Below, piece by piece: positions 19,500-22,525 of a stretch of DNA of 64,000 bases. A program made the translations under genes and the position numbers. Below the pieces are notes generated by a model. The model was not told where the DNA came from and did not search any database. It worked only from the letters and a program-made list of their open reading frames with translations. The number at the start of each line of letters is the position of its first letter. Positions within the stretch are counted from its first letter, which is position 1. The DNA comes from Spartobacteria bacterium (GTDB lineage: Bacteria > Verrucomicrobiota > Verrucomicrobiia > Chthoniobacterales > UBA6821), in assembly GCA_947471565.1 (NCBI GenBank), contig CANIVT010000014.1, positions 1 to 64,000 of the forward strand, given 5' to 3'.

Positions 19500-20561
19500 G
19501 TGAACTCCATCCATCCATCGCGACAACGGGGGCTCTCCATATTGCTCTTTTGCGTACTAGCGCTAAGCGCATGCCAACCTAAAAAGAGCTCTCCCTCACC
19601 CGATCAAGAGCACGTGACGGCATCTTTCAGGACAGTCATTGAAAAGGTAGTTTCGGGATCCAAAGCAGTCTTTTTGCCCCCCGGATGCCTAGCCCTGATC
19701 CCCAAGACAACCTTCACAAGGATTCCCACCACAGAAGAGATCGCGAAGGCGCTCACAGACCCCTCCTCGTTCCATACGTTGAACCGGGAATACCGCTTTG
19801 ATCGTGTCTTTCTACTTCCCGGACCTCTCTGCGCCCCCCTGCGGGATCATTTGCTTGAGTCCCCTGTCTGGGTCCTCTCCCAAGTGTCTCCCGAGGGATA
19901 CCTCTTCCGGGTTGCCGGAAGCACACCATGGCACGCTCCAGATGCTGGCGAGGCCGAGCGCTTGATCCCGGATCCGAACGCAAGATCGCTCTGGATGATC
20001 GCCTCCGCTGGAAATCTACTCGCCATCGGACATACCGAGGAGGCCGCAAGCCTGCTTGCACTGGCCTCTTGTTCGAAGAGGCATGAAGCGGATCGTCTTG
20101 CCACACTCGCTTCCTTGGAGGCCTCCTGCGGACATTGGAACAAGGCGGTCGATCTTGCCACGCAGTCTCTCCGCTCCGACAGGCGCCATCGGACGTCCAC
20201 CATGATCGTCATCCGTGCTCTCACGGAAACAGGACATCGCGATGAGGCCTTGGAAAAAGCCAGGGCTTTCGTCCATGCATCCCCCGATGCCGAATCCCTC
20301 TTTCTTCTGGCGCGCGCCGCCAATGCAGCAGGAGATCACGCCGAGGAGATTTCGGCGCTGCGCCGCCTTGTTGCGACCGCAAAAAAGGAGAACCTGCCTG
20401 CGGGAGCAAGCCTCCTCTACCTGGGACAAGCCTTGGCACGAGACGGACAACGCGGGGAGGCCCTTCGAATACTGGAAGAAGCACAGAATGCTCCGGAACT
20501 CACTGCCGAACAGAAACAAGTGATCAGGGAGCTACGAGACCATCTAGCTCCTAGCTCCTAG
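19500..20561 (+). CDS. TPR-containing lipoprotein
   Basis: 353 residues from a GTG at 19500; the ATG at 19489 hits a stop at once. The signal peptide ends in a lipobox (LSAC). A central region has no recognised domain; the C-terminal half is alpha-helical with tetratricopeptide-like repeats (ALTETGHRDEALEKARAFV, LLYLGQALARDGQRGEALRI). Likely an outer-membrane-anchored scaffold. Oddity: its last codons and its TAG stop are supplied by the heptanucleotide array starting at 20545, so the C-terminal LAPSS is repeat-encoded. Downstream on the same strand is ilvD, unrelated in function. Confidence 0.8.
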   Translation: MNSIHPSRQRGLSILLFCVLALSACQPKKSSPSPDQEHVTASFRTVIEKVVSGSKAVFLPPGCLALIPKTTFTRIPTTEEIAKALTDPSSFHTLNREYRFDRVFLLPGPLCAPLRDHLLESPVWVLSQVSPEGYLFRVAGSTPWHAPDAGEAERLIPDPNARSLWMIASAGNLLAIGHTEEAASLLALASCSKRHEADRLATLASLEASCGHWNKAVDLATQSLRSDRRHRTSTMIVIRALTETGHRDEALEKARAFVHASPDAESLFLLARAANAAGDHAEEISALRRLVATAKKENLPAGASLLYLGQALARDGQRGEALRILEEAQNAPELTAEQKQVIRELRDHLAPSS

Positions 20562-20649
20562 CTCCTAGCTCCTAGCTCCTAGCTCCTAGCTCCTAGCTCC
20601 TAGCTCCTAGCTCCTAGCTCCTAGCTCCTAGCTCCTAGCTCCTAACTCC
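20545..20649. repeat. Heptanucleotide tandem array (TAGCTCC)n
   Basis: Fourteen perfect head-to-tail copies of TAGCTCC (20545-20642), then one variant TAACTCC (20643-20649). Each unit contains TAG; because 7 is not a multiple of 3, a frame entering it meets a stop within three units, and this is how the upstream lipoprotein ends. The array fills the space before ilvD, whose ATG is 45 bases after the last unit. There are no spacers, so it is not a CRISPR. Confidence 0.98.
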
Positions 20650-20694
20650 TATTCCTGCTTCCGCGTGGGAAAATCCGCTGATAAGTTTCACCAC

Positions 20695-22419
20695 ATGAGC
20701 CGTAAGAAAGTCTCCACAAAATCCAAGGCATCCAGCAAATCCATCACCCGCGAGCATTCCTCCCTTCTGCTCGACGGACCTAGCCGCGCCGCCAGTCGTG
20801 CGATGCTCTATCCCGTGGGATTCAGCGAAAAAGACTTTTCAAAATCAATCGTCGGCGTCGCCTCGACCTGGAGCATGGTCACCCCGTGCAACATGCACAT
20901 CGACGCACTGGCTCGTGAGGCCGCTCTCGGCATCGATAAGGCCGGCGGCAAGCCGATCATCTTCAACACCATCACCATCTCCGATGGCATCTCCATGGGA
21001 ACCGAGGGAATGAAATACTCCCTCGTCTCCCGAGAAGTGATCGCCGACTCCGTTGAGACGGTTGCGGGATGCCAGGGTTTTGATGGGCTCGTGGCCATCG
21101 GCGGCTGTGACAAGAACATGCCGGGCTGCATGATCGCCATCGCCCGCCTGAACCGACCATCGGTCTTCGTCTATGGCGGCACCATCCTGCCCGGCTGTCT
21201 TAACGGCAAACTCATCGACGTGGTCTCCGTTTTTGAAGCAGTCGGACAAGAAGCCGCAGGCGTGATCTCAGCCAAGGAGCGCCAGGCCGTCGAGTCTTGT
21301 GCGATCCCCGGACCCGGATCCTGCGGCGGCATGTACACCGCCAATACCATGGCCAGTGCCATCGAAGCGATGGGGATGAGCCTCCCAAACAGTTCCGCCC
21401 AGGCGGCCGTGTCCTCGCACAAAGTGACCGACTGCCGCGAGGCGGGGGCCGCCGTGGTCAATCTCCTGAAGCGGGGAATCCGTCCCCGTGACATCATGAC
21501 CCGAGAAGCTTTTGAGAACGCCATCACAACCGTGATCGCCCTTGGCGGCTCAACCAATGCGGTCCTGCATCTCCTTGCTATCGCCCACACCGCGGGTGTG
21601 AAACTCTCGATCGATGATTTCACCAAGATCGGCAAGCGCATCCCCGTCCTCGCGGACCTCAAGCCAAGTGGCAAGTACCTCATGTCACAGCTCATCGAGA
21701 TCGGCGGGATTGTCCCTCTCATGAAGGAACTCCTCGCCGCGGGACTTCTTCACGGCGATGTGATGACAGTCACCGGCAAGACGCTCCGCCAGAACCTTGG
21801 TGCCTTCAAACCCTATCCCAAGGGCCAGCAGATCATCCGCCCCATCTCCGACCCCATCAAGAAGGAGAGTCACCTCGTTATCCTCAAGGGCAACCTTGCC
21901 CCCGAGGGAGGCGTCGCCAAGATCTCGGGCAAGGAGGGGCTGCGCTTTTCAGGACGCGCCCGCGTCTTTGACGCCGAGGAAAAGGCCCTGCAGGCGATCC
22001 TCGACAAGAAAATCAAAAAGGGTGATGTCATCGTCATCCGCTACGAGGGCCCCAAGGGAGGTCCCGGCATGCGCGAAATGCTCTCCCCTACCAGCGCGGT
22101 CATGGGACTTGGACTGGGCAAGGATGTCGCGCTCATCACCGACGGACGGTTCTCAGGAGGCACCCACGGCTTTGTCGTCGGACACATCACCCCTGAGGCT
22201 TTCGCCGGCGGGCCAATCGCCCTCGTCAAGGAAGGCGATACCATCACCATCGACGCCGAGAAGCGCGCCCTGACGCTGGGCGTCACCGCCGCCGAACTCG
22301 CCAAGCGCAAGAAATCCTGGAAGCAGCCCGCCCCCCGCTACCGTCGCGGCGTGCTTGCCAAGTACGCCTCCCATGTCACTGACGCCTCCCACGGCGCTGT
22401 CACGGATGCCGGGCTGTGA
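20695..22419 (+). CDS. ilvD: Dihydroxy-acid dehydratase
   Basis: Fe-S enzyme making 2-keto acids for valine, isoleucine and, via ketoisovalerate, leucine and CoA. 574 residues from the ATG at 20695; a GTG ten codons earlier (20665) is possible but nearer the repeat array. The three cluster-ligand cysteines are in place: Cys65 (VTPCNMH), Cys138 ([10 protein letters not shown]) and Cys210 ([15 protein letters not shown]). The C-terminal signature [14 protein letters not shown] is present. A Lys/Ser-rich N-terminal extension of about 20 residues is unusual. No ilvBN or ilvC nearby. The array just upstream may lie in its promoter or leader. Confidence 0.96.
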
Positions 22420-22443
22420 AAAGGGCTAAGCCCTTCTGCGAGC

Positions 22444-22474
22444 TATTAGGCTGAAGACTGTCAGGCTGTTAGCC
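22444..22474. repeat. Dispersed intergenic motif, copy 1
   Basis: TATTAGGCTGAAGACTGTC followed by AGGCTGTTAGCC lies between ilvD and the convergent gene at 22526. The same core (GGCTGAAGACTGTTAGGCT) recurs, inverted, at 34561-34592 and in diverged form at 34461-34478. The inverted repeat AAGGGC-TAA-GCCCTT just before it (22423-22437) could help end ilvD transcripts but has no T tract. Confidence 0.55.
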
Positions 22475-22525
22475 ATCACATGATCCGCTTTGTCCGCTTG
22501 TAGGGAGTTCCCACCCGAATCCCCT

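Follow-up and report, generated by a model that had tools for sequence, protein, structure and literature searches.

Heptanucleotide long simple sequence repeats reportedly occur in prokaryotic genomes, as described by Mrazek and others in 2007. Repeats of this kind also appear in the available text of PMC4679880 and PMC4692102, which covers the GGGNATC / GGGGA(T/C)T heptads of Xanthomonas and Nostoc (Rehm and others 2015, PMC4692102) and the TAACTGA direct repeats of Beggiatoaceae, cyanobacteria and Bacteroidetes (MacGregor 2015, PMC4679880). In the passages available, MacGregor proposed that a protein binding RNA or DNA recognises the TAACTGA repeats of Beggiatoaceae (PMC4679880). Contingency loci carry repeats in promoters or leaders, such as the AGAT repeats of uspA2 (PMC4679880, available text), and short tandem repeats show no average enrichment in bacterial genomes according to the accessible part of PMC12699852.

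The array considered here lies in a 64,000-nucleotide stretch of DNA (the window) from a Spartobacteria bacterium (GenBank assembly GCA_947471565.1, contig CANIVT010000014.1, positions 1 to 64,000), where units of TAGCTCC, also written GGAGCTA below, stand between a gene for a TPR lipoprotein and ilvD. It belongs among the heptanucleotide simple sequence repeats by its head-to-tail perfect 7-bp units in a number beyond chance, by its essentially non-coding location, with a translated part made up of the first two units and the stop only, and by a copy number that differs between related genomes, here between two species and elsewhere between orthologous loci of other genera. Like the repeats of Mrazek and others, it is a perfect 7-bp tandem outside coding sequence, and period 7 exceeds periods 5, 6, 8 and 9 in the window's genome (G000). 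The TAGCTCC unit is named in none of the heptamer listings searched, as far as their available text extends, and our literature search found a 14-base tandem of TAGCTCC in no paper.

Comparison with the other systems revealed both likenesses and differences. According to the available text of PMC4692102, GGGNATC heptads often lie near or overlap a stop codon and are scarce between divergent genes, as GGAGCTA does and is, but they have runs of three or four G and form G-quadruplexes, whereas GGAGCTA has GG only, short of the three or more G in a row per unit that mark G-quadruplex repeats. The same text also places GGGNATC heptads on the antisense strand a short way upstream of genes, whereas GGAGCTA is depleted at gene 5' ends. 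TAACTGA, as described in the accessible portions of PMC4679880, is likewise a heptamer that puts a stop into each of the three forward frames; some of its sets extend over the stop codon of the preceding gene, and the repeat is scattered across phyla. However, the unit in the window is TAGCTCC, most TAACTGA sets lie only a few bases from a start codon, and one genome has 169 sets against two arrays in G000. Contingency loci, in the same portions of that paper, resemble our array in being intergenic tandem repeats whose number can be changed by slippage, but their repeats lie in the transcribed leader or promoter, whereas the window array would lie upstream of a predicted core promoter.

The array at the end of the lipoprotein gene

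The original prediction described fourteen perfect TAGCTCC units and one variant, supplying the last residues and the stop of the lipoprotein. Direct inspection of the sequence and TRF bear out the fourteen units and the variant (Table 1), the number being the assembler's answer in a draft genome of 2.28 Mb in 46 contigs, and the lipoprotein frame does end ...DHLAPSS* in the third unit. TRF delimited the array at 20544-20651, with period 7, 15.4 copies, 99% matches and a score of 209, the highest in the window (the runner-up scored 59), and the perfect period-7 run measures 101 bp. Three Rfam matches fall within the window, none of them at the array. The array was also said to fill the space before ilvD; it does stand there, but 45 bp remain up to the conserved ATG at 20695. 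Hairpins as a cause of slippage were unsupported by folding, in which neither strand of the array DNA surpassed shuffled sequence (z-scores of 0.32 and 1.72) and the junction RNA gave a z-score of -0.55 against shuffles.

Table 1. Features at the junction of the lipoprotein gene and ilvD (positions in the window)
Feature	Positions	Strand	Basis
TPR lipoprotein gene, 353 aa	19500..20561	+	ORF; Pfam TPR_14; orthologue in G003
14 perfect TAGCTCC units	20545..20642	+	TRF and direct check
Lipoprotein stop TAG, inside the third unit	20559..20561	+	ORF and direct check
Variant unit TAACTCC closing the array, counterpart of TAACTTCC in G003	20643..20649	+	Comparison with G003
45-bp spacer from array to ilvD, nearly identical in G003	20650..20694	+	Comparison
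TGATAAGTT, putative extended -10 element for ilvD	20679..20687	+	Conservation of TG-N-TA
ilvD, dihydroxy-acid dehydratase	20695..22419	+	Pfam; ATG by comparison

The lipoprotein matches Pfam TPR_14 with an E-value of 5.9e-06, above the family cut-off, and a lipobox, LSAC, can be read by eye. Its orthologue in the closest relative (G003) is 83% identical over 353 residues, and both proteins end in PSS*. Each unit contains CTAG, so TAG is present on both strands, and because the 7-base period visits all frames, translation running into the array in any frame ends in three units or fewer; a run of TAGCTCC carries a stop in each of the six frames. When unit number was changed in silico to 2, 3, 4, 5, 8, 13, 14, 15 or 20, the lipoprotein end APSS* stayed constant, with the stop provided by the TAA of the variant unit at two units and by the TAG of the third unit at three or more. 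With one unit, the lipoprotein frame continues and is in frame with ilvD, and with none the lipoprotein is lengthened to 366 residues. The expectation that slippage leaves the lipoprotein end unchanged is therefore correct for the nine numbers from 2 to 20 and fails for one unit or none.

ilvD was found in 14 of the 16 genus genomes and could be read upstream in 13, the other (G008) ending at a contig edge. In G003, where the ilvD protein is 96% identical and the DNA of the region about 86% identical, the junction reads TATCTCC TAGCTCC TAACTTCC, about three imperfect units followed by nearly the same 45 bp. The site thus holds about 15 units in the window and about three in G003, a difference in length between two species, each represented by one genome. 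In the remaining 11 genomes, the 400 bp ahead of ilvD contain no tandem units, with a single TAGCTCC present there in G006. Since these 11 are without tandem units, the change from about three units to 15, or the reverse, is dated after the split from G003. Because lengths differ between two species at this site and among orthologous loci in other genera, use of the array as a strain marker, also part of the original prediction, is plausible from the sequences compared; should unit number prove variable in natural populations, the array would make a convenient marker for the group.

We consider it probable, at roughly 78%, that the array is a heptanucleotide simple sequence repeat that grew by slippage, is tolerated at a gene end and is near-neutral. 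In the shared ancestor of G000 and G003, the lipoprotein gene would have acquired a seed of about three imperfect 7-mers at its 3' end. Replication slippage, which we infer as the mechanism, would then have lengthened and homogenised the array in the window lineage, or the array would have shrunk in G003. It would be tolerated at the lipoprotein end because every frame meets TAG, and on the predicted anatomy extra units would change neither the lipoprotein nor a nearly leaderless ilvD transcript, consistent with near-neutrality. Long 7-bp repeats may gather at gene ends more generally because a stop in each unit makes changes of length harmless.

The ilvD start and its predicted promoter

Pfam matches to ilvD are strong over both domains (ILVD_EDD_N, E-value 8.7e-128; ILV_EDD_C, E-value 4.5e-79). 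The first in-frame ATG, at 20695, is the start common to the 13 compared genomes, and is followed by MS(S)-K-rich residues. The ORF finder had placed the start at a GTG (20665), which is unconserved, and G003 has no GTG or TTG in frame before the ATG.

Upstream of this ATG, the motif TG-N-TA is present in 13 of 13 genomes, with its T at -12 to -16 (at -15 in 10 of them). Base shuffles of the upstream 40 bp gave the motif in a mean of 0.88 and a maximum of 5 of 13, figures that are not a probability, as the motif was spotted by eye and then tested and the shuffles ignore the kinship of the 13 genomes. It is retained in the three genomes whose ilvD is not preceded by the TPR gene (G014, G015 and G005). 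We take a TG at -15/-14 to be in the position of an extended -10, and a TG so placed would set the start of the transcript at or near the A of the ilvD ATG. With strict sigma-70 criteria, a scan of the junction returned no site. From the conserved motif, we infer that the ilvD promoter lies in the 45 bp between the array and the ATG and that the transcript is nearly leaderless. The array would then cover -150 to -46 from the ATG, upstream of the predicted core promoter, and the sequence beside the promoter would be constant at any unit number because the units are identical. An array before a gene need not be in that gene's leader, and here the relatives pointed to a promoter downstream of it.

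A 464-kb sample of G000 (the window and L177-L196) lends moderate support to short leaders across the genome. Among its 208 ORFs with an upstream gap of at least 60 bp, TANNNT starts 15 times at -14 to -12 and 17 times over the 21 positions from -60 to -40; with 55 starts over the 25 positions from -39 to -15, the excess near the start is only about twofold over its near neighbourhood. Words resembling a Shine-Dalgarno sequence and starting at -12 or -11 numbered 14 in 65 ORFs with gaps below 20 bp and 8 in the 208, counted as words that may overlap and on crude gene calls. In this sample, long-gap ORFs were thus seen with TANNNT near the start and few Shine-Dalgarno words, and closely packed ORFs with such words. 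Transcription without a leader may be frequent in this genus.

It had been proposed that unit number would alter the ilvD leader by 7 bases per unit and so tune expression. The promoter-like TG-N-TA that lies between array and ATG in all 13 genomes leaves the claim about the leader unsupported, and a likely promoter in this position weakens the idea of tuning as a whole. Such tuning could act through leader length, the spacing of upstream sites or helical phase, 7 bp being about two thirds of a helical turn, and we regard it as rather improbable in any of these forms. It draws on the short distance of 45 bp from the array end to the ilvD ATG, and on the TPR gene directly preceding ilvD in 10 of 13 testable genomes, an order that makes read-through plausible, with no terminator-like site found at the junction; if ilvD were mainly read through from the TPR gene, the array would be inside the transcript. 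The unit of the second G000 array (contig C5) likewise ends about 55 bp before the start of a gene and has the same orientation to it. However, 11 of the 13 genomes have ilvD without tandem units before it, which argues that ilvD can do without the array, and among the matches listed in our wider survey (below) the unit is rarer than the control near gene 5' ends (7 of 96) and in divergent gaps (8 of 96). The array probably does not tune ilvD.

Arrays of the same unit in other genomes

Two or more tandem TAGCTCC units were found in 3 of the 16 genus genomes (G000, G003 and G014), and three or more in the same 3 among 22 family genomes. In a sample of 194 Verrucomicrobiota genomes, to which G003 and G014 do not belong, three units occurred in one, the window's own genome. 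The second G000 array, on contig C5, has a perfect run of 77 bp. The two genes that converge on the G003 array of contig C24 both take their stops from it: a LytTR response regulator, whose stop is the first three bases of the array, and a Ham1-family gene on the opposite strand, which ends ...ELGARS*. In G014, the array on contig C13 supplies the stop of a photolyase gene, which ends ...LGARS*, and another array lies at a contig end (C32, 36-119). Comparison of orthologous sites took in three other arrays (G003:C45, G014:C23 and G014:C32 were left out), of which two, G003:C24 and G014:C13, supply gene stops. Tandem units were absent from the counterpart of the G003:C24 site in G000 (C1), from that of the G000:C5 site in G003 (C277), and from those of the G014:C13 site in G000:C25, G003:C37, G004:C26 and G005:C25.

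Dispersed repeats of about 100 bp were observed near two of the TAGCTCC arrays. One (L001, 1748-1840) recurs in G004, G005 and G014; the other (L010, 1401-1499) recurs in G000, G003, G004 and G005 and looks palindromic by eye.

A scan of genome contigs for four TAGCTCC units returned at least 117 stretches. By record titles, many of them of MAGs and with phyla assigned by us, the arrays represent at least 11 phyla in a scan run without a control heptamer. Among the matches listed, these are Pseudomonadota, Acidobacteriota, Planctomycetota, Verrucomicrobiota, Bacteroidota, Chloroflexota, Actinomycetota, Myxococcota, Cyanobacteriota, Bacillota and Desulfobacterota (Desulfuromonadales).

Outside the genus, the arrays concentrate at gene 3' ends. 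From the 117 listed loci, 2 were omitted for being shorter than 2 kb, and 22 arrays were set aside because no more than 150 bp separated them from a locus end, leaving 96 arrays that are not independent, some being orthologues or from one genome. Among the matches listed, and with crude calls of ORFs of at least 100 aa, a gene 3' end was overlapped or lay within 30 bp in 43 of the 96 arrays, compared with 267 of 1920 (13.9%) in a control of random intergenic points rather than inserted arrays; 18 of the 96 had the gene end inside the array, a count that is inflated since entering an array ends an ORF by construction. A gene 5' end lay within 30 bp in 7 of the 96 (control 285/1920). By the orientation of their neighbours, again among the matches listed, 31 arrays lay between convergent genes (control 402/1920), 48 between codirectional genes (911/1920) and 8 between divergent genes (422/1920), and a single one of the 96 was inside an ORF of at least 100 aa.

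Length also varied among orthologous loci, defined by matching flanks on both sides (seven pairs matching on one side were unused, and one within-locus pair, L088, was dropped). Among the matches listed, the longest perfect runs were 10, 10, 9 and 7 units at four Pseudoalteromonas loci, 6 against 5 and 12 against 8 in two orthologous pairs, and 9 against 4 in two Shewanella benthica records, where the run of 4 belongs to a longer array mixed with GGAAACTA units.

Period 7 and the standing of the unit

In the 464-kb sample of G000, perfect runs of at least three units numbered 7 for period 7, compared with 1, 2, 0 and 2 for periods 5, 6, 8 and 9, in a sample that is non-random in that both TAGCTCC arrays were included on purpose (without them, the count for period 7 is 5). 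When mismatches were allowed, there were 6 runs for period 7 and 3 each for periods 6 and 9. Period 7 thus modestly exceeds its neighbouring periods in this sample. The commonest heptad was AAGGCTG, with 5 of 13 runs of at least 16 bp; three AAGGCTG units were present in 12 of the 22 family genomes, and the reversed control in none of the 22. Degenerate relatives were noticed by eye just after ilvD (window 22440-22475) and beside the C5 array.

A reading that goes further than near-neutral slippage is that CTAG heptads are repeatedly seeded at gene 3' ends across phyla as portable all-frame stops, with GGAGCTA forming a convergent, selected class. If so, one array of CTAG heptads could terminate two convergent genes at once, as at G003:C24, and GGAGCTA would be a selected class and not one of about 1170 equal heptamers. 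The flanks of the 117 listed loci also contain 32 perfect arrays of other heptamers, 5 of which were one base from GGAGCTA against 0.57 expected, a hint only, since the expectation assumes 1170 equal classes and the loci were picked for carrying the unit. Three units of GGAGCTA occurred in 3 stretches of viral contigs, and three composition-matched heptamers gave 8, 9 and 6, so a special status of GGAGCTA is unsupported by this comparison. We consider selection of such a class unlikely.

In the same viral contigs, three units of GGGAATC occurred in 3 stretches and three of TAACTGA in 104. Several of the TAACTGA stretches (L238-L341) had two or more sets, 432 bp apart in four of them.

It is very unlikely that the unit number is an assembly artefact, a short-read repeat collapsed or expanded. 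Although the assembly is at draft level (46 contigs) and the G014 array on C32 sits at a contig end, the G000 array is inside its contig with non-repeated flanks, G003 has an independent short version, and records of named strains also contain arrays of TAGCTCC. Least credible is recognition of the array by a protein that binds RNA or DNA, as MacGregor proposed for TAACTGA: the unit does occur at two loci of G000 and in two related genomes, but the compared sites are not shared between relatives, 13 of the 16 genus genomes have no tandem units, and TAACTGA lies mostly just before start codons whereas TAGCTCC lies preferentially at gene ends.

A far longer heptanucleotide array was observed in a Pseudomaricurvus contig (L124, 3969), with 97 perfect units of GGTTCTA.
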